From Candidatus Zixiibacteriota bacterium (GTDB taxonomy: Bacteria; Zixibacteria; MSB-5A5; GN15; FEB-12), in contig JANQPI010000035.1 in NCBI GenBank assembly GCA_028289585.1, positions 156,717-220,716 of the forward strand: DNA of 64,000 nucleotides, in the 5' to 3' direction. The notes under the pieces were generated by a model. It did no database searches. It was not told the origin of the DNA and saw only the letters and a list, made by a program, of their open reading frames with translations. Made by a program: the position numbers and the translations under genes. The stretch's first letter is position 1. Every line of letters begins with the position of its first letter. Shown here one piece after another: positions 10,391 through 27,810 of the stretch.

Positions 10391-10427
10391 CGTTGAATTG
10401 CGGCACGCTAAACGGACATACTTCGGA

Positions 10428-11768
10428 ATGGCGGGTATCTCCCTATTGCTAGTCGACGACGAGGATCAGGCACGATCACTACTGGCGGGTTACCTCTCAC
10501 AACACGGCTTCAATGTCACTGAAGCGGGTGACGGTGTTGCCGCTCTGGAAGCCTACCGGGAGTCGTTTTCACCGGTGGCCTTGATCGATCTCAAGATGCC
10601 CGGGATGGGCGGGATGGAGCTGCTACGCGAGCTTCGCGCCCTCAATCCGTTTGTTCAAGTGATTGTGTTGACGGCGTTCGGTTCGGTCGAGTCAGCGGTT
10701 GAGGCAATGCGGGCAGGCGCGGTCGATTACCTTACCAAACCGGTGGAGGAGCTCGATGAGCTGCGGTTTAAGCTCCTCCGCGCTGCCGAGACGAACGCGC
10801 TGATTCGGGATCAGGTCGCGGGTGCCGTGGAACGAGCCGACAGCATGCCGCACTTGGAGCTTCTGGGCGATTCACCGCCGATGCTGACCGTGCGAAACCT
10901 GATCACCAAAGCGGCACCGACCGATTCGACCGTGCTGGTCACCGGACCGTCGGGTAGCGGCAAGGAGTTGGTCGCCCGATCATTACACGCCGGCTCGCCC
11001 CGCGCTACCGGCCGATTGGTGGCGATCAACTGTGGTGCCTTTCCTGAGTCGCTTTTAGAGGCGGAACTGTTCGGCCACGAAAAGGGGGCATTTACCGGTG
11101 CTGACCGTCAAAAACCAGGTCGCATCGAACTGGCCCACGAGGGCACCCTGTTTCTGGACGAAATTGCCGAGATGCCGCCAACGATGCAGGTCAAGCTGTT
11201 GCGAGTTCTCGAAGAGCGACGGATTGAGCGGGTTGGTGGAACCGAATCAATACCTATTGATTTTCGTCTGATTGCCGCCACCAACCGCGATCTCGAAAAG
11301 TCGATCGCCAACGGTGCGTTCCGCGAAGACCTCTACTATCGGTTGAATGTTGTTCGGATCGAGCTGCCTCCGCTCGCTGATCGGGGAGGGGACATCCTTC
11401 TGCTCGCTCAGGTCTTTCTCGCTCGTCACGCCCAGCGTTTAGGGAAGTCAATCGACCGAATCGATCCCGGTGCGGCGGCGCTGCTTCGTGGCTATCAGTG
11501 GCCGGGGAATGTCCGAGAGCTCGATAATCTGGTCGAACGCGCCGTGGTCCTGGCCACCGGGACAACTCTGACTCGTGATGAGTTCACTGGTATCGGCGAG
11601 GGGCCTTCAGATCAGGCGACCGGCGTCGGCCGGGCTCTGGTCGACGTCGAACGCGAGCATATCGTTCGAGTCCTCGCCGCCCACGGTGGCAACATTACGG
11701 CCGCAGCCGACGTTCTCGGCATCCACCGCAACACCCTCCGGACCAAGATTCGCGACTACGGTCTGTAA
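10428..11768 (+). CDS. NtrC-family sigma54-dependent response regulator
   Basis: A 446-residue activator; the ATG at 10428 begins right at the receiver domain (the ORF extends to 10398). Receiver domain about residues 3-120 with phospho-acceptor Asp54 in ALIDLKMPG and the KP motif (YLTKPVEE). The AAA+ domain (about 140-375) has Walker A GPSGSGKE, the intact sigma54-contact loop GAFTGA and Walker B GTLFLDEIAEM. A Fis-type helix-turn-helix ends the protein (GNITAAADVLGIHRNTLRTKI). Phosphorylation should trigger ATP-driven open-complex formation at sigma54 promoters. No kinase adjoins it; the NtrB-like kinase at 21.8 kb is a possible partner. A perfect sigma54 promoter lies 126 bases downstream. 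Confidence 0.93.
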   Translation: MAGISLLLVDDEDQARSLLAGYLSQHGFNVTEAGDGVAALEAYRESFSPVALIDLKMPGMGGMELLRELRALNPFVQVIVLTAFGSVESAVEAMRAGAVDYLTKPVEELDELRFKLLRAAETNALIRDQVAGAVERADSMPHLELLGDSPPMLTVRNLITKAAPTDSTVLVTGPSGSGKELVARSLHAGSPRATGRLVAINCGAFPESLLEAELFGHEKGAFTGADRQKPGRIELAHEGTLFLDEIAEMPPTMQVKLLRVLEERRIERVGGTESIPIDFRLIAATNRDLEKSIANGAFREDLYYRLNVVRIELPPLADRGGDILLLAQVFLARHAQRLGKSIDRIDPGAAALLRGYQWPGNVRELDNLVERAVVLATGTTLTRDEFTGIGEGPSDQATGVGRALVDVEREHIVRVLAAHGGNITAAADVLGIHRNTLRTKIRDYGL

Positions 11769-11943: not shown

Positions 11944-12837
11944 ATGAAACGCTTACTTGCCTTACCGTTGCTTGCTGGCTTCCTCGTTTTTGCCGCTGGT
12001 TGTGATGATGACGACGGAGCGACGATTGGGCCGGTCATCGATCCCCCGGAACCGCCACAGGGCGTCTTCTCTGTGACTGGGGATCAGGAAGTTACAATCG
12101 TCTGGAATGGCCCATACGTTCGGGATATCGCCTCGTTCACGGTCTTTCGCTCGTTCTTTGCCGACTCTGGTTACGTGGCGATTGGTTCTGTCGTCGCCCA
12201 GAACAATCCGAATCTTGATCTGATTCAGTATGAGTATACCGACGCGACCGTTGCGAACGGGACCACGTACTACTATGCGGTAGCGTCAGTCGACGGTGCG
12301 GGGCGTGAGGGGCCGCTGTCCGCTGAATTCGTCGTCGATACGCCACGGCCGGAAGATGTCGTGACGTTATTCGACATCGTCGTCCAACCGTCACTTGCGG
12401 GTTTTGACTTCAGTGCTGAGGCTCGTCTCGATACTGCGGCCGGAGTCGATATCTTCATCGATCGGTTCGACGGTATCTTCTATATCAATGCCGGGCTCAA
12501 CGTAGATCTCCAGGATATGGGATTTACGGGGTCCTTCGATGAAATCGGTTTTGCGCCCGATCAGGGCTGGTCGTTACTCGGTTTCTCCGAGTTGATCCTG
12601 GGGCACACCTATGTGATCTGGACGGCCGACGATCAGTACGCCAAAGTTCGAGTTCTGGGAATCAATGACGCACAGGGTTCGGTACAGCTAGAATGGGCCT
12701 ATCAGACCTCGACCGATCCCGACTGGCGTTTTGAGCTGACCCTTCCACCGACGTACGACACTCGTCCCGAACGCCCTCCGACCGGAACGCCGAAGCGCGA
12801 ACTCCTGGGCGCCACGGGAGAAAGGATACTATTATGA
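11944..12837 (+). CDS. Lipoprotein with fibronectin type III-like domain
   Basis: A 297-residue lipoprotein; signal peptide with lipobox FAAGC and the lipidated Cys followed by a run of Asp (CDDDDG), an export-favouring context. Three ATGs (11938, 11941, 11944) follow GAGGAG at 11932-11937; spacing favours 11944. About residues 38-125 form an FnIII-like beta sandwich (VTIVWNGP...YYYAVASVDGAGREGPLS). The remaining part is acidic and beta-rich and not recognised. Its stop overlaps the next ATG (ATGA, 12834-12837), so the two products are translationally coupled and likely act together, under sigma54 control. Confidence 0.8.
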   Translation: MKRLLALPLLAGFLVFAAGCDDDDGATIGPVIDPPEPPQGVFSVTGDQEVTIVWNGPYVRDIASFTVFRSFFADSGYVAIGSVVAQNNPNLDLIQYEYTDATVANGTTYYYAVASVDGAGREGPLSAEFVVDTPRPEDVVTLFDIVVQPSLAGFDFSAEARLDTAAGVDIFIDRFDGIFYINAGLNVDLQDMGFTGSFDEIGFAPDQGWSLLGFSELILGHTYVIWTADDQYAKVRVLGINDAQGSVQLEWAYQTSTDPDWRFELTLPPTYDTRPERPPTGTPKRELLGATGERILL

Positions 12838-14369
12838 AACGCACAGCTGTCACCCGGTTCGCGACGCTGGCGTCGGTGATTGCGCTGGCAGTCACCTCCG
12901 TTGGAGCGCAGTCGCTCGAACGTATTGATCGCGATGACCGGTACTACGATGGGGGTCCGCTGCCGACCCAGATCGATCGCTATCTCGATGCCGAGGTATG
13001 GACAGATCGTGACGACGGTGAGTACTACGCCGGCGATAAGGTGCGAGTTAACTTCAGAGTTAATCGAGACGCATTCGTTGCGATCTACAGCATCGATGCG
13101 CGCGGTCGAGTTAATCTCGTCTTTCCGGTCGATCCGAACCAGGACAACTTTGTCCGGGGTGGGATAACGCACACGCTGCCCGGACCGTATGATGATTACG
13201 ACCTTGTCGTGCGGGGTCCAGAAGGTGAGGAGTTCCTGCAAATCATCGCCTCGCGCGAGCAGTTTCCCATTCCGAACTGGTACCACAACTCAGGGCTGAT
13301 CGCCGATGATGATGTCTATGGCTACATGGACTACCTCAACGAAACGCAATTCGTCAGTTATGCCGGACAGCGGTTTGCGTATGATCGGGCCGTTCTCTTT
13401 GTCAATGAATGGGAGCCGTATTACTTCCGCCCGGTTTACTATCCGGCCTATCCAAGTTGGACGATCGCTGGTAATGTTTATATCGACTACCCCTATGGAG
13501 GGTCGATCTACATCAACGGCCATTACTGGGGTTGCGCGCCCCTGTACATCCCACGGATTGCCGTCGGCTGGCACACGATTACGGTCTACGACCGCTACGG
13601 CTACTGCTGGGAGTCGCCGTTCCATGTCAGTCACTACAACACGGTGGTGATTAACAAGACGATCGTCCGCACGAGCCCTACGGTTCGGTCGAAGTACAAA
13701 GAGGTTCACGCGGTGGGCTATCGCGATCCGGTGAAGAGTGGTTACCCCAACTATAACGAGCGCGTTGCCGCTATCACCAAGAAGACGCGCAGCACAACGA
13801 CTGTCGGTAAGAATCCGTATGCTTCGACTTCGTCTAAGGCGACCGCGTCTTCGTTGCCCAAGAAGTATGCACGCGGATCGACCGCTCTGGTCAAGACCGA
13901 TCGTGGCTACGAGACCGACCTCAATGCGGCCGTTTATCCGCGCAGCAATGACAAGCGCAGTCGATTTGTCCCGGGATCACGGGAATCGCAGAACTCGTAT
14001 CGGAAGTCAACAACGCGGCGATCTGGTAGTGACATCAGTTCTCGCTCGTCAAACAGCCGCAAAGGGTCGACCTACGATAGACGGACGACGACACGTTCAA
14101 ACGCCGGAGTAAAGCGTTCGGAGCCGTCGAAGCGTTCGTCGTCGGCGGTGAAGCGATCGAATTCCGGATCGAAGAGTTCGGGTGACCGCAAGCGGATCTC
14201 GAGTTCGTCATCCAAGAAGTCCTCCGGATCGGTGAAGCGATCGTCGTCGAGCAAGAAGCCGTCATCAGGGGCGGTGAAGAAGAGTTCCGGTTCGAGCAAG
14301 TCATCCGGTAGCTCGAAAGGGAAGAGCAGTAGTTCGTCGAAGAAGGGTTCGTCGAGCAAGAAGAAGTAG
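12834..14369 (+). CDS. Secreted DUF4384/PEGA-type protein with Ser/Lys-rich tail
   Basis: A 511-residue exported protein with a signal peptide ending near ...SVGAQ (residue 26). A DUF4384-like domain lies about residues 50-140 (VNRDAFVAIYSIDARGRVNLVFP), a domain seen beside stress and surface proteins. About 210-275 looks like a PEGA-type beta domain (YIDYPYGGSIYINGHYWG). From about 305 the protein becomes disordered, and the last 130 residues are almost only Ser, Lys, Arg and Gly, strongly basic, suggesting binding to polyanionic cell-wall polymers or DNA outside the cell (inference). Coupled to the preceding lipoprotein gene by a four-base overlap. Confidence 0.75.
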   Translation: MKRTAVTRFATLASVIALAVTSVGAQSLERIDRDDRYYDGGPLPTQIDRYLDAEVWTDRDDGEYYAGDKVRVNFRVNRDAFVAIYSIDARGRVNLVFPVDPNQDNFVRGGITHTLPGPYDDYDLVVRGPEGEEFLQIIASREQFPIPNWYHNSGLIADDDVYGYMDYLNETQFVSYAGQRFAYDRAVLFVNEWEPYYFRPVYYPAYPSWTIAGNVYIDYPYGGSIYINGHYWGCAPLYIPRIAVGWHTITVYDRYGYCWESPFHVSHYNTVVINKTIVRTSPTVRSKYKEVHAVGYRDPVKSGYPNYNERVAAITKKTRSTTTVGKNPYASTSSKATASSLPKKYARGSTALVKTDRGYETDLNAAVYPRSNDKRSRFVPGSRESQNSYRKSTTRRSGSDISSRSSNSRKGSTYDRRTTTRSNAGVKRSEPSKRSSSAVKRSNSGSKSSGDRKRISSSSSKKSSGSVKRSSSSKKPSSGAVKKSSGSSKSSGSSKGKSSSSSKKGSSSKKK

Positions 14370-14404
14370 CGGCAACACATCGCTATTCCATTGCGGATAA
14401 GGCG

Positions 14405-14437
14405 CCGGTTGGGACGAAGACCCCGACCGGTTCTTTT
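14405..14437 (+). terminator. Rho-independent terminator
   Basis: Stem CCGGTTGGG/CCCGACCGG (14405-14413 with 14422-14430, one G-U pair) followed by TTCTTTTTG. It ends the sigma54-driven two-gene unit. Confidence 0.85.
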
Positions 14438-14480: not shown

Positions 14481-14509
14481 TTGACGGCCGTTACAATAGA
14501 TCGTAACTA
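14481..14509 (+). promoter_or_regulatory. Sigma70-type promoter of the heat-shock operon
   Basis: TTGACG (14481-14486), 17-base spacer, TAACTA (14504-14509). The predicted start near 14516 falls just before the TGGCAG half-site array. An alternative heat-shock-sigma reading (CTTGAG ... CCAATAT) is weaker. Confidence 0.6.
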
Positions 14510-14518
14510 CTTGAGTGG

Positions 14519-14552
14519 TGGCAGTTTAGCTGCCAATATGGCAGTCATGCCA
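14519..14552. promoter_or_regulatory. Alternating TGGCAG half-sites: candidate HrcA operator
   Basis: Half-sites TGGCAG 14519-14524, CTGCCA 14530-14535, TGGCAG 14539-14544 and TGCCA 14548-14552 alternate in orientation; the middle pair forms a perfect 6-3-6 palindrome (14530-14544). The array sits just past the predicted start of transcription, where a repressor would act. The classical CIRCE sequence (TTAGCACTC-N9-GAGTGCTAA) is absent. Confidence 0.55.
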
Positions 14553-14589: not shown

Positions 14590-15642
14590 ATGGCGTTTGA
14601 AAACCTGACAGATCGGGAAAAACAGGTCCTCGCGAACCTGATCGACCACTATATCACGACCGCTGATCCGGTCGGATCCCGGTTGATCGCGAACAAGTTC
14701 CGGATGGGCATCTCGCCCGCAACTGTTCGTAACACGCTGCAGGATCTCGAAGAGCTTGGGCTGGTCGAGCAGCCGCATACCTCTGCGGGACGGGTGCCGA
14801 CCGATCAGGGCTATCGGCTCTATGTCGATCTGCTCTTCCGACCGGCTGATCTCACCGAGGCGGAGAAGGCTCAGATCCGCGGCTCGCTTCTCAAGGAGGG
14901 GCGTGGAATCGATGCCATCCTGGGCCAAACCGCCCGGGTTCTCGGCGAGATCACCAATCAACTTGGAATGACGCTGGCGCCGCGCTTTGAGTCAGGTGTT
15001 CTCCGGGGACTGCGGCTGATCCCGGTCGCCAGCGGGAAGATCATGGTGGTTGTCATTGTGGAGTCGGGGCTGGCCCGCTCACTCGTTCTCGAGGTCGAAA
15101 GCTCGGTTGGCGACGCTGTTCTGAGTGACATCGAAGCGCTGCTCAATGAGCGGTTGGCCGGTCTGTCGCTCCGTGAGATCCGGGCGACGATCTCCGAACG
15201 ACTCGCCGATGTTGGTGGCGAAGCCCGTCTGATAAACTTCGTGGTGGATGCGAAAGACAAGATCTGGGCCGATGACAATCAGGATACGTTGACCACCGCG
15301 GGCGTAAACAATCTTATCGCTACACCCGAGTTCTCGGTGCCCGAAAAGATGGTCCCGATGCTCCGTCTGCTTGAAGAGCGCAAAGCGCTGACCGAATTCC
15401 TGGCGGCTGCCGAGGACGAGGGACTCTTGATTACGATTGGCAAAGAATCGGCGATTGATGAGATCATGAATTGCTCACTGGTAACGTCGACCTACCGGGT
15501 GGGCAAGATCAGCGGCAAGATTGGGATCATCGGACCAACGCGAATGCCTTACAGCAAGTTGGTGTCGATTGTTGAATACACCGCACGCTCGATTACGGAA
15601 GTCCTGTCGGGCTATAACGAGAAGACACGAGAGGTATCCTAA
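14590..15642 (+). CDS. hrcA: Heat-inducible transcription repressor HrcA
   Basis: A 350-residue repressor of class I heat-shock genes; it needs chaperone help to stay folded and so senses free chaperone. The N-terminal winged helix shows LTDREKQVLANLIDHYITTADPVGS and the family motif ATVRNTLQDLEELGLVEQPHTSAGRVPTD. The GAF-like ligand domain and dimerisation region fill the rest. First gene of hrcA-grpE-dnaK-dnaJ, so it probably represses its own operon through the TGGCAG array upstream. grpE starts 3 bases after its stop. Confidence 0.96.
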   Translation: MAFENLTDREKQVLANLIDHYITTADPVGSRLIANKFRMGISPATVRNTLQDLEELGLVEQPHTSAGRVPTDQGYRLYVDLLFRPADLTEAEKAQIRGSLLKEGRGIDAILGQTARVLGEITNQLGMTLAPRFESGVLRGLRLIPVASGKIMVVVIVESGLARSLVLEVESSVGDAVLSDIEALLNERLAGLSLREIRATISERLADVGGEARLINFVVDAKDKIWADDNQDTLTTAGVNNLIATPEFSVPEKMVPMLRLLEERKALTEFLAAAEDEGLLITIGKESAIDEIMNCSLVTSTYRVGKISGKIGIIGPTRMPYSKLVSIVEYTARSITEVLSGYNEKTREVS

Positions 15643-15645
15643 CGG

Positions 15646-16230
15646 ATGTCAGACAAAGAACGAGACCCAGCGACGACAACTGAAACGTTGGAGACCGAAG
15701 CGTCGTTCTCCGGCGAAAGCGAGGGAATCGAGGCGCCGACCAGTGAGGGAGAACCCGGCGATCCGGCTCGGGAGTGGGAGGAAAAATACCTTCGCGCTCT
15801 CGCCGATCTCGACAACTACAAGAAGCGGGCCGTACGGATCGCCGAAGATGAACGGCGTTACGCAAATGACCGTCTGCTCCGCGAGCTTCTTGACGTGATC
15901 GATGACTTCGAGCGCGCTGTTGCGAGCACATCACCCGATGATTCGTTGGACGACTCGCCGTTCCGCGCATTTCACTCCGGTGTATCGATGATTCATGGAA
16001 AACTGCTCGGCATGTTGGAACGGTTCGACGTCACACCTATGGACGTCATTGGTCAGACGTTTTCCGCCGACGAGCACGAAGCGATGCTTCGTGTACCGTC
16101 AGAAAAAGACAGCGAGGGGACGGTCGTTCAAGAGCTCCGACGCGGTTACCTGATTGGTGACCGTGTCCTCCGCCACGCCCAGGTTGCGGTGGCCACCACG
16201 CCCGAGCCACAGAACGATGATGAGGAATAA
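15646..16230 (+). CDS. grpE: Nucleotide exchange factor GrpE
   Basis: A 194-residue co-chaperone that releases ADP from DnaK. An acidic, disordered first 40 residues precede the long coiled coil (WEEKYLRALADLDNYKKRAVR...), typical dimer-forming stalk, and the C-terminal beta wing (EAMLRVPSEKDSEGTVVQELRRGYLIGDRVLRHAQV). Placed directly between hrcA and dnaK with 3- and 12-base gaps. Confidence 0.95.
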   Translation: MSDKERDPATTTETLETEASFSGESEGIEAPTSEGEPGDPAREWEEKYLRALADLDNYKKRAVRIAEDERRYANDRLLRELLDVIDDFERAVASTSPDDSLDDSPFRAFHSGVSMIHGKLLGMLERFDVTPMDVIGQTFSADEHEAMLRVPSEKDSEGTVVQELRRGYLIGDRVLRHAQVAVATTPEPQNDDEE

Positions 16231-16242
16231 GGAGAATCTCTA

Positions 16243-18180
16243 ATGGGTAAAGTTATTGGCATTGACCTCGGGACGACGAACTCGGTTGTCGCCGTTCTGG
16301 AAGGAAAAGATCCGGTCGTCATCCCGAACACTGAAGGAGCACGGACGACACCGTCCGTCGTCGCCTTCACCAAGGACGGGGAGCGACTTGTCGGGGCCGC
16401 AGCCAAGCGGCAAGCGGTCACCAATCCGGAAAACACCGTCTTCTCGGTGAAACGTTTCATGGGGCGACGGCACGACGAAGTCTCGGAAGAAGAGAAGATT
16501 GTCCCGTACATTGTCGGCGAAGACGCGTCCGGAAACGCCATGGTTGAGGTCCAGGGCAAGCAGTACGCTCCCCCGGAGATTTCGGCGATGGTCCTCGGGT
16601 ATCTAAAGAAGTCGGCGGAGAAATATCTCGGTGAGGAAGTCACTCAAGCGGTCATTACCGTCCCAGCCTACTTCAACGATAGCCAGCGTCAAGCGACAAA
16701 GGATGCCGGGAAGGTTGCCGGTCTGGAGGTGCTGCGAATCATCAACGAGCCGACGGCAGCGTCACTCGCCTACGGTCTGGCGAAACAGCAGAATCAAAAG
16801 ATCGCTGTCTATGATCTCGGTGGCGGTACGTTCGATATCTCGATTCTTGAGCTTGGTGATGGTGTTTTCGAGGTCCGTTCCACCAACGGCGACACGCATC
16901 TGGGTGGTGACGATTTTGATCAGCGCATTATCGACTGGCTTGCGGATGAGTTCCGGAAAGATCAGGGGATTGACCTGCGCAAAGATCGCATGGCTCTTCA
17001 GCGGCTAAAAGAAGCTGCGGAGAAGGCCAAGATCGAGCTGTCGTCAACGATGCAGACAAACATCAATCTGCCGTTCATTACTGCGGATCAGTCAGGGCCG
17101 AAACATCTTGATCTGACCCTGACTCGGGCCAAGTACGAGTCGCTCGTGGAGGAACTCGTGCAGCGGACGATCCAGCCGTGTAAGGCGGCGATTGCCGATG
17201 CGGGCCTGTCAATCTCGGAGATCGATGAGATTGTTATGGTCGGCGGTATGACGCGCATGCCGAAGATCATCGAAACAGTCGAATCGGTCTTTGGTAAGAA
17301 GCCGAATCAGTCGGTCAATCCAGACGAAGTTGTCGCCGTTGGTGCGGCCATTCAGGGCGGCGTGCTGGCCGGTGATATGCAGGATATCGTGTTGCTCGAT
17401 GTCACACCGTTGTCGCTGGGTATCGAGACGCTTGGCGGGGTCATGACGAAACTGATTGACCGGAATACGACAATTCCGACGAAGAAATCGCAGGTCTTCT
17501 CGACCGCTTCTGACAATCAGCCGGCCGTGTCGATTCACGTGCTCCAGGGTGAACGCCAGATGGCGATCGATAACCGGACTCTCGGCCGATTCGATCTGGC
17601 CGACATTCCGGCTGCTCCTCGAGGTGTCCCTCAGATCGAGGTGTCGTTCAACATCGATGCGAACGGCATCGTACATGTGTCGGCCAAAGACATGGCGACC
17701 GGCAAGGAACAGTCGATTAAGATCGAAGTGAGTTCGGGGCTGTCCGACAATGAGATCGATCGCATGGTCAAGGATGCGGAGAAGTTCGCGGACGAGGACA
17801 AGAAGAAGGGTGATCTCATCGCCGCCCGTAACGAGGCCGACGCGCTTGTCTATCAGACGGAGAAGACTCTCAGCGAGCATGGCGACAAGATTGATGCCGA
17901 TGAAAAGGCCAAGATCGAAGCGGCCGTTGCCGGCCTGAAAACTGCCGTCGCGGGCGAGTCGCTCGACGCGATTACAAAAGCGAAAGAGGAAGTCGTGCAG
18001 GCATCGCACAAACTGGCCGAGCAGATGTACCAGTCGGCACAGGGCGATCCCGGGGCTCAGGCTGGCGCGACTGGTGCCGAGGGTGGTACGGCCGACGCCG
18101 GGCCAAGTGATGACACGTCCTCCGGCTCCGATGACGCCGTCGATGCTGACTTCGAGGTCGTCGACGACGACAAGAAGTAG
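16243..18180 (+). CDS. dnaK: Molecular chaperone DnaK (Hsp70)
   Basis: A 645-residue Hsp70. It opens with [17 protein letters not shown] (phosphate-1 loop) and has [27 protein letters not shown] and the interdomain linker [19 protein letters not shown]. The substrate domain and helical lid follow, with a Gly/Ala/Asp-rich linker and a terminal [11 protein letters not shown] that is the usual acidic end. An AAGGAG ribosome-binding site precedes the ATG. Works with DnaJ and GrpE encoded on either side. Confidence 0.98.
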
Positions 18181-18188
18181 CGCGATAG

Positions 18189-19349
18189 ATGTCTAAACGC
18201 GACTACTACGAAGTTCTCGGTGTTGACCGGGGAGCTGATGAGGGGACAATCAAGTCAGCCTACCGCAAGCTGGCGATGAAGTTTCACCCTGATCGCAATC
18301 CCGGCGATGCCGAAGCCGAGGATCGCTTCAAAGAGGCTACGGAAGCGTACGAGATCCTCAAGGATCCTCAGAAGCGTCACGCGTATGACCAGTTCGGACA
18401 TGCCGGCGTTGGCCAGGGGGGACCGTCGGGATTCGGTGGCTACGGTGCCGGCGGGTTTGCCGGATTCGATCTCTCCGACGCCCTCCGCGCATTCATGCGC
18501 GACTTCGGTGGCGGGGGGTCGGTCTTCGATGATCTCTTCGGTGGCGGTCGTCCCCGCGAGAACCGTGGTGAGGATCTCAGAATACGCGTCGAGTTAACCT
18601 TGGAAGAGATCGCGAGTGGCGCGGAAAAGAAAGTGAAAGTCAACCGACTTATCGGTTGTGAGACCTGTGACGGCTCCGGCGTTGCCGCCGGAGCCTCTCA
18701 GCAAACCTGCCCGCAGTGTAAGGGGCAGGGACGGATGCGAACGGTCACCCGAACATTTCTGGGCACGGTACAGCAGGTGGTCGCCTGTAACATGTGCCAG
18801 GGACAAGGTGAGGTGATTGCCGATCCGTGTAAGACGTGCCGTGGCGAGGGCCGCATCAAGGGTAGCAGTACCGTTACGCTCAACATTCCGGCAGGGGTCG
18901 CGACCGGCAACTACATGACGGTTGAGGGGAAGGGAAACTCGGCGCGCCGTCGCGGTCTTACTGGCGATCTTGTCGTGGTCTTCGAGGAGGCCGATCACGA
19001 ACACTTCACCCGTCACGGCGACAATATCATTTTTGAAACGGCCATTCCGTTTACCACCGCGGCGCTGGGCGGGGAGGTAACAGTCCCGATTCTCGGTGGT
19101 GAGACGACGCTCAAAGTACCAACCGGTACGCAGTCGGGAAAGGTCCTCAAGTTGAAGGGGAAAGGCATTCCGCATCTCCGCGGCTCGGGTCGCGGCGATC
19201 AGTTGGTTTCCCTGGTCGTCTGGGTCCCGACCAAGCTCTCGTCGCAGGACAAAAAGTTGCTCAATGAATTGGCCGAATCCGAGACCTTCCAGGCACCCAA
19301 CAGTGACAAGTCATTCTTCTCGCGCTTGCGCGAGACGCTAGGCGTCTGA
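18189..19349 (+). CDS. dnaJ: Chaperone DnaJ (Hsp40)
   Basis: A 386-residue type I Hsp40. J domain with HPD motif (KFHPDRNPG, about residues 31-39), a Gly/Phe-rich linker (about 72-115), four CxxCxGxG zinc motifs (CETCDGSG, CPQCKGQG, CNMCQGQG, CKTCRGEG) and C-terminal substrate domains. It delivers clients to DnaK and stimulates its ATPase. Starts 8 bases after dnaK; prmA begins one base after its stop. Confidence 0.98.
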   Translation: MSKRDYYEVLGVDRGADEGTIKSAYRKLAMKFHPDRNPGDAEAEDRFKEATEAYEILKDPQKRHAYDQFGHAGVGQGGPSGFGGYGAGGFAGFDLSDALRAFMRDFGGGGSVFDDLFGGGRPRENRGEDLRIRVELTLEEIASGAEKKVKVNRLIGCETCDGSGVAAGASQQTCPQCKGQGRMRTVTRTFLGTVQQVVACNMCQGQGEVIADPCKTCRGEGRIKGSSTVTLNIPAGVATGNYMTVEGKGNSARRRGLTGDLVVVFEEADHEHFTRHGDNIIFETAIPFTTAALGGEVTVPILGGETTLKVPTGTQSGKVLKLKGKGIPHLRGSGRGDQLVSLVVWVPTKLSSQDKKLLNELAESETFQAPNSDKSFFSRLRETLGV

Positions 19350-19350
19350 T

Positions 19351-20226
19351 TTGACTGACGATAGTCGACAGCAGTTTCTTGAGGTTAAGTTTCGCGTCGA
19401 TCGCGAACATCTCGACGCAGTCTCGAATTTCGTCATCGAAAACATCGCCAATGGTATCCTCCTCGACGACGAGGAGGATGTGGCCGACGTTGGACTCACC
19501 TTCTATGTCCCACCGCCTCGGCAGGCTCAGTATCGCGAGGCCTTGGAACGTTATCTCTCAGCCGTCCTGACTACCGTTCCACGGCTATCCATTCGTTCCG
19601 TGACCGATATGGAATGGATCGATCGCTACAAGCAGTCGGTCCAGCCGCTCGTACTCGCTAATGACGTAGTCATCAGACCATCCTGGCACGAAGCTCCGCT
19701 CGAAACTCCTTACGATATCATCATCGAGCCTAAGATGGCATTTGGAACCGGGACACATGAAACGACGCGGAGTTGCCTCACATTGATCCGCGAGCATTTC
19801 AAAACCGGAATGTCCTTTCTCGACCTTGGGTGTGGCTCTGGGATTCTTTCGATCCTGGCGGCCAAGATGGGCGCTCTCCGACTCATGGCGATCGACTATG
19901 ACGTTATGGCAATCGATAACTGTCGGGAGAACTTCGACCTCAATACCATCACCGCTCCCTACGATATCCGCTTCGGATCGATTGACAAGACTGAGCGCAA
20001 CAGCACGTATGATTTTGTGGTCGCCAACATCATCCGTCGGACAATCGAAGACTGGTTGCCGCGCTTACAGGAACTTACCCGCCCCAATGGCATCTTGCTC
20101 CTGTCAGGGCTGCTTCGCGACGACGAGGCCGTAATCACGGACCGGCTCACAAAGTTGGGTGAAACGGTCTCCGAGGTAATCCACGACGGTGATTGGGTGA
20201 CCCTTCTTGTGCGACGGGACGGTTAG
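19351..20226 (+). CDS. prmA: Ribosomal protein L11 methyltransferase PrmA
   Basis: A 291-residue SAM-dependent enzyme that methylates ribosomal protein uL11. The start is TTG, one base after the dnaJ stop. Motifs: the family's PKMAFGTGTHETTR, the SAM loop FLDLGCGSGILSILAAKMGA and the catalytic-region VVANI. The N-terminal uL11-recognition domain (about 1-75) is present. The dnaK/dnaJ-prmA-rsmE order is widespread in bacteria. Confidence 0.94.
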   Translation: MTDDSRQQFLEVKFRVDREHLDAVSNFVIENIANGILLDDEEDVADVGLTFYVPPPRQAQYREALERYLSAVLTTVPRLSIRSVTDMEWIDRYKQSVQPLVLANDVVIRPSWHEAPLETPYDIIIEPKMAFGTGTHETTRSCLTLIREHFKTGMSFLDLGCGSGILSILAAKMGALRLMAIDYDVMAIDNCRENFDLNTITAPYDIRFGSIDKTERNSTYDFVVANIIRRTIEDWLPRLQELTRPNGILLLSGLLRDDEAVITDRLTKLGETVSEVIHDGDWVTLLVRRDG

Positions 20227-27628: not shown

Positions 27629-27631
27629 CAA

Positions 27632-27756
27632 CAACTTCGGGGCGAGGTGAAATTCCTCGACCGGCGGTTACAGCCCGCGACTCATGTCGGTATCCGGCAT
27701 GACTGAGCCTGTGAAATTCAGGTGCCGACGGTGACAGTCCGGATGGTAGAAGACGT
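27632..27756 (+). promoter_or_regulatory. FMN riboswitch (RFN element)
   Basis: The conserved core is complete: GGGGCGAGGTGAAATTCC, ACCGGCGGTTACAGCCCGCGAC, a variable arm, then GTGAAATTCAGGTGCCGACGG, and CAGTCCGGATGGTAGAAGA. The closing stem pairs CTTC (about 27635) with GAAG (about 27749). Binding of FMN should lower expression of the following rib operon. Confidence 0.97.
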
Positions 27757-27810
27757 TCGGTAACTGCGTGCATGCATGCGGTCGCCGGTTGGCGATGTGC
27801 CACCTTTCTG

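Follow-up and report, generated by a model that had tools for sequence, protein, structure and literature searches.

A TGGCAG box shared by hrcA and the RNase R gene as the putative operator of a second chaperone regulator in a family of uncultured bacteria

What controls an hrcA-grpE-dnaK-dnaJ operon that lacks the operator of its own HrcA? CIRCE, the HrcA operator (TTAGCACTC-N9-GAGTGCTAA), is regarded as among the most conserved bacterial operators. The window, by which we mean the whole 64-kb stretch of DNA analysed here, comes from a 3.15 Mb assembly of 55 contigs (G000) and holds no CIRCE at up to three mismatches, at hrcA or anywhere else. The hrcA product is a full-length HrcA, scoring 295 bits with TIGR00331 against a cutoff of 197 and carrying the winged-helix domain PF03444 and the C-terminal domain PF01628; its nearest named relatives are found in a GN15 assembly (64% identity) and a Zixiibacteriota assembly (60%). 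The prmA-like methyltransferase gene that follows dnaJ possibly belongs to the same transcript (Table 1). On the other side, the third gene ahead of hrcA codes for an NtrC-type response regulator (receiver, Sigma54_activat and HTH_8 domains; 10398-11768, + strand); the two genes in between are of envelope type (DUF4384/PEGA, 12834-14369), and the two genes next to hrcA seem by eye to recur in one relative (L134).

Ahead of hrcA, four TGGCAG half-sites of alternating orientation fill 14519-14552. A sequence-only reading of this DNA had described them together with a perfect 6-3-6 palindrome, and both are borne out at their coordinates, the palindrome being CTGCCA-ATA-TGGCAG and the fourth half-site matching at five of six positions. 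Searched with up to three mismatches allowed, the pattern TGGCAG-N5-CTGCCA-N3-TGGCAG matches the window once, at this site and without a mismatch (0.02 expected). The same reading had described the half-sites as covering the predicted start of transcription; that start is a prediction only, and no sigma-70 promoter turned up in a consensus scan. Within the predicted -35, alignment column -49 is T in 40 of 47 hrcA upstream regions, and the family's counterpart of the weak -10 is TAAATT, one base earlier in the alignment than TAACTA in the window. Many hrcA and groES promoters of the family also carry a GTTAWAA-like stretch inside the -35/-10 spacer (14490-14497 in the window), and the family's groES promoters share GGAAACYTCTTGACA.

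Table 1. Features of the operator region and operon in the window, with the basis of each assignment.
Feature	Position	Strand	Basis
Terminator-like hairpin (intrinsic type) with T tail, between hrcA and the preceding gene	14404-14431	+	consensus scan; 0.3 expected in shuffles
Predicted -35, TTGACG	14481-14486	+	aligned with the TTGAC conserved in the family; not picked up by the consensus scan
Weak predicted -10, TAACTA, 17 bp after the -35	14504-14509	+	position only
Place of relatives' CIRCE left half TTAGCACTC; window has CTTGAGTGG, 2/9	14510-14518	+	family alignment
Half-site 1, TGGCAG	14519-14524	+	sequence; TGNCA in 44/47 relatives
Place of CIRCE right half; window has AGCTGCCAA, 5/9 to GAGTGCTAA, overlapping the box	14528-14536	-	family alignment
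Conserved core of the TGGCAG box, CTGCCA-N3-TGGCAG	14530-14544		37 exact, 44 at up to 2 mismatches, of 47 hrcA upstream regions
Half-site 2, CTGCCA	14530-14535	-	sequence, conservation, family alignment
Half-site 3, TGGCAG	14539-14544	+	sequence, conservation, family alignment
Half-site 4, ATGCCA, 5/6 match	14547-14552	-	sequence; not conserved among relatives
hrcA	14590-15642	+	TIGR00331, PF01628, PF03444
grpE	15646-16230	+	same search as dnaK and dnaJ
dnaK	16243-18180	+	TIGR02350
dnaJ	18189-19349	+	TIGR02349
prmA-like methyltransferase gene	19351-20226	+	PRK00517 and TIGR00406 models just below cutoffs

The core of this site is widely conserved. We located hrcA in 49 of 54 genomes of the window's family and counted 47 usable upstream regions, the window genome being one of them; L005 and L006 were dropped as identical upstream to L019 and L107, L034 and L117 as having no usable start, and L120 (G025:C202) as a second HrcA-like frame, 38% identical and with an internal stop, which is possibly contamination. 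The core CTGCCA-N3-TGGCAG stands ahead of hrcA in 37 of the 47 exactly, in 40 at up to one mismatch and in 44 at up to two, compared with maxima of 0, 0 and 2 among 60 permuted palindromes used as controls, so the box recurs across genera above chance. The spacing is fixed as well: at up to one mismatch, the outward arrangement has a spacer of three in 40 of 47 regions and any other spacer from 0 to 11 in at most one, and the inward form TGGCAG-N5-CTGCCA, which had been put forward at the outset as a search pattern, occurs in 16. Eleven bases before the core, TGNCA recurs in 44 of 47, at the place of half-site 1, and the box ends 15-51 bases from the hrcA start codon. As judged from this alignment, the putative control site of the chaperone operon is a real and widely conserved DNA signal, in keeping with the original proposal of a non-CIRCE operator.

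In relatives the box lies over the right half of a CIRCE. A CIRCE left half (TTAGCACTC, at least 7/9) stands 20 bases before the core in 20 of the 47 upstream regions, six of which match it at all nine places, against at most one region at any of the 65 remaining offsets between -60 and +5. This is exactly where the left half would lie if the CTGCCA half were also the CIRCE right half; CIRCE and box thus share a single exact register. Elsewhere in the genomes CIRCE persists: at up to two mismatches it is found in 46 of the 54, and in 45 of these it reads ahead of groES. The window genome is included, with a one-mismatch CIRCE 121 bases ahead of groES, which narrows the earlier statement that CIRCE is absent to the window itself. 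In one genome (G051) the sole match stands at hrcA, overlapping the box. In its recognition helix, SPATVRNTLQDLEELG, HrcA closely resembles the HrcA proteins of families that have a canonical CIRCE.

Outside the family we read 40 hrcA upstream regions from families f2-f19. CIRCE is present with 0-1 mismatch in f5, f18 and f19 and with 1-2 in f9 and f10; f2 has TTGTCACTC or TTATCACTC-N9-GAGTGCCAA/G; and in the sister family, f4, CIRCE is uniformly asymmetric, the right half opening with GATTGC in 11 of 11 regions (L279-L284, L299-L303). All three f3 regions carry TTAGCGCTC with an overlapping CTGGCAG-N5-CTGCCAG, the inward form, and in some of the families f2-f19 neither element was seen ahead of hrcA. 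The outward box at up to one mismatch occurs in none of the 40. Across this series of CIRCE and box arrangements, the alignments mark the window as the most derived state.

The box also stands ahead of other genes. The 54 family genomes hold 60 exact boxes, which position relative to located genes and a reading of the loci assign to hrcA (38), groES (5), the RNase R gene rnr (4), a LonB-like protease gene (4), an hsp20-dnaK pair (1) and places elsewhere (8). A reversed-pattern control gives 45 genome-wide matches, and it is therefore the position of the boxes and not their raw count that carries evidence. Ahead of groES (45 upstream regions anchored on a CIRCE match at up to two mismatches, the window genome among them, with L086 and L148 each counted without a spurious orientation and L150 dropped for having no groES behind the site) the box is exact in 5, within one mismatch in 11 and within two in 16, with control maxima of 0, 0 and 1. 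Ahead of the LonB-like gene, whose protein matches PF13654 and PF05362 and lies far under the TIGR00764 cutoff, the corresponding counts are 3, 9 and 17 of 48 (control maxima 0, 1 and 4). At both genes only subsets of the family genomes have the box. With a relaxed pattern, another hsp20-dnaK site (L261) comes to light, as do three LonB-like sites at a greater distance upstream (L276, L277 and L278); in these three genomes a small gene runs divergently beside the LonB-like gene, and the box lies 4-5 bases past its stop codon. The window genome has an exact box 148 bases ahead of its LonB-like gene and, 193 bp ahead of the groES CIRCE, the sequence CGCCA-TAT-TGGCAG-CCCGC-CTGCCA, so that the suggested search ahead of groEL did return a related copy upstream of groESL, there and in a subset of relatives.

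The RNase R gene gives the pattern its direction. In the family, the box lies ahead of rnr in 4 of 44 upstream regions exactly, in 26 at up to one mismatch and in 40 at up to two (control maxima 0, 1 and 3); the 44 rnr and 48 LonB-like regions each include the window genome, and loci without a start or with fewer than 40 bases ahead were excluded. The sister family has the core CTGCCA-N3-TGGC ahead of rnr in 13 of 14 regions, 11 of them with the full box, and the box with one mismatch in the fourteenth; a search of 15 whole f4 genomes with CTGCCAWNNTGGCAG returned 11 places, all 11 at rnr, and the f4 hrcA regions, with their asymmetric CIRCE, are without the box. Among 28 rnr loci further out (L360 without a start), eight have the box at up to one mismatch (f2 4/4, f5 2/2, f10 1/2 and one in f16), one f10 and one f3 locus have it with two mismatches, an f7 match with two mismatches is at a different place, and the remaining loci have none. 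As the box is present at rnr in f4 and in further families whose hrcA is without it, this distribution indicates that rnr is its older and commoner site and that hrcA acquired it in the window's family. At the window genome's own rnr (L229, G000:C23:403100-404100) the box is missing, and TTGGCGGTCCGCC stands inside the promoter spacer.

From these comparisons we consider it probable that a regulator other than HrcA uses the TGGCAG box as its operator, and that this operator is ancestral at rnr and was captured by the chaperone operon. Its form would be CTGCCA-N3-TGGCAG, in most cases joined by a third half-site 9-11 bp further on. At hrcA the box is just downstream of the predicted promoter and overlaps the place of the CIRCE right half in the family; because it lies at or just after the predicted transcription start, binding there should block transcription, and a protein dimer or oligomer on it would prevent the start or early elongation of the hrcA-grpE-dnaK-dnaJ transcript. 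The bound regulator would let go under stress, release by protein-damaging stress being assumed from the nature of the targets alone. Such a regulator would act in parallel to HrcA where relatives keep half or all of CIRCE, and would replace it in the window. At rnr, groES and the LonB-like gene the box precedes the promoter, a position from which activation and repression are equally likely, the latter possibly from a distance. This ambiguity, the restriction of the groES and LonB-like boxes to subsets of genomes and the loss of the box at the window genome's own rnr all count against the reading.

Which protein would read the box? In the inspected loci the gene directly behind rnr encodes a protein of some 475 residues that combines Sigma54_activat with HTH_8; the three such proteins scanned had no receiver match. 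By tblastn, a protein of this type is encoded no more than 1.5 kb from rnr in 29 of 30 loci of the family, in 13 of 14 of the sister family and in 24 of 28 others, the single misses in the family and its sister being incomplete loci. We tentatively name this receiver-less sigma54-type (Fis-HTH) protein as the reader, on account of its linkage to rnr. It would then control its own operon, and a regulator of its own operon that later gained targets would explain the pattern of boxes. A further-reaching version makes it a master regulator that acts on sigma-70 promoters and joins RNA decay with protein folding; its operator would have moved into the CIRCE ahead of the chaperone genes in this lineage, and in the window it would have fully displaced HrcA. 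We regard this version as doubtful.

The assignment is weakened by the protein's recognition helix, which is nearly invariant, also in families with no box seen at rnr; a comparison of helices failed to distinguish families that have the box from those that lack it, and co-occurrence is not discriminating, the regulator being near rnr almost everywhere. The conserved helix speaks for a transcription factor encoded elsewhere, with the rnr-linked protein unrelated to the box, an explanation we rate as less likely. Against it, rnr is the only exact target in the sister family, which argues for a linked regulator, and no non-target box fetched, most of them within coding frames, lies clearly ahead of a regulator gene. 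Inspection by eye of the genes conserved next to hrcA, groES and the LonB-like gene showed no regulator either.

That HrcA itself reads the box appears improbable. The half-site would have drifted from GAGTGCTAA to GACTGCCAA, and HrcA oligomers would sit on the alternating half-sites; the box half-site does resemble a drifted CIRCE half, so that HrcA could still touch it at hrcA. The CTGCCAA half does fall exactly at the place of the CIRCE right half in the window's and other families, real groES CIRCEs in the family tolerate TTGGCACTC and TTAGCAGTC, and the genes with a box are mostly heat-shock genes. However, the groES CIRCE stays canonical, the recognition helix is unchanged, the half-sites at rnr are spaced by 9 and about 10 bp, where CIRCE has 18 bp, and include no CIRCE half, and rnr has the box in families whose hrcA lacks it. 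For these reasons the suggestion in the sequence-only reading that this HrcA recognizes a different motif does not survive as the main explanation: the box occurs at rnr in families whose hrcA has CIRCE or CIRCE-like sites and no box, and CIRCE is retained at groES.

A sigma-54 promoter, which has GG at -24 and GC at -12, was also weighed and is very improbable: TGGCAG-N5-CTGC would drive hrcA from about 14545, its spacing and bases fit in the window and sigma54-type activators lie near hrcA and behind rnr, but the needed GG is kept in only 8 of 47 relatives and the spacing is mostly one base shorter in the rnr boxes. Equally remote is an RNA hairpin in the 5' leader, acting on mRNA stability or as a thermometer, for which half-sites 1-4 and 2-3 could pair in nested fashion, given that the fold is weak (z-score -1.15; 27 of 200 shuffles as good), no Rfam family matches the site and the boxes at rnr, groES and the LonB-like gene are not transcribed from the promoters that they precede. 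The rnr box immediately precedes CTTGAC, upstream of the -35; it is therefore outside the transcript of that promoter and acts as DNA. A terminator was likewise set aside: T runs follow a few groES boxes, but a promoter follows the rnr boxes. Rfam matches the window only once, with an FMN riboswitch at 27629-27758 (+ strand; 92.4 bits, gathering score 66.2), and thus offers no known RNA family at the operator.

The preferred reading, a second regulator with an operator ancestral at rnr, would make this uncultured class (nearest named: candidate division GN15 / Zixiibacteriota) a case in which CIRCE gave way step by step, at the chaperone operon, to an operator with a longer history at rnr. The series offers a concrete example of how the site of one regulator may pass to another, with a named candidate regulator. 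In the paper listings that we searched, there was no report of this motif or of heat-shock control in Zixibacteria, and nothing relevant on TGGCAG with HrcA, on an RNase R operator or on an RNase R winged helix or autoregulation.

Compared with known systems, the box resembles HrcA/CIRCE in its setting: it belongs to the same operon, occupies the same place over the predicted start and, in relatives, overlaps a half or near-whole CIRCE. It differs in that the window's hrcA has no CIRCE, and the core has other half-sites, a 6-3-6 spacing and rnr as its ancestral target. The two-component system HsfA/HsfB of Myxococcus xanthus reportedly activates lonD, a heat-shock protease gene (Ueki and Inouye 2002, cited in PMC9548883); its genes and their linkage are other than those of the TGGCAG box. 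HsfA is NtrC-like. In Campylobacter and Helicobacter, HspR shares the hrcA and groES promoters with HrcA, with several HspR sites in Campylobacter (PMC7464140), and is thus likewise a second regulator alongside HrcA at these two promoters. The HspR sites there lie upstream and are separate from CIRCE, whereas the TGGCAG box overlaps CIRCE at hrcA; nor is the box a HAIR element, the HspR operator (CTTGAGT-N7-ACTCAAG), as the window has CTTGAGT at 14510-14516 and, seven bases on, GTTTAGC in place of ACTCAAG (by eye). A further regulator beside HrcA is the orphan response regulator MXAN_4468, which in Myxococcus modulates groEL together with HrcA; it works through binding to HrcA and to its own gene, and showed no binding to CIRCE (PMC9040617).
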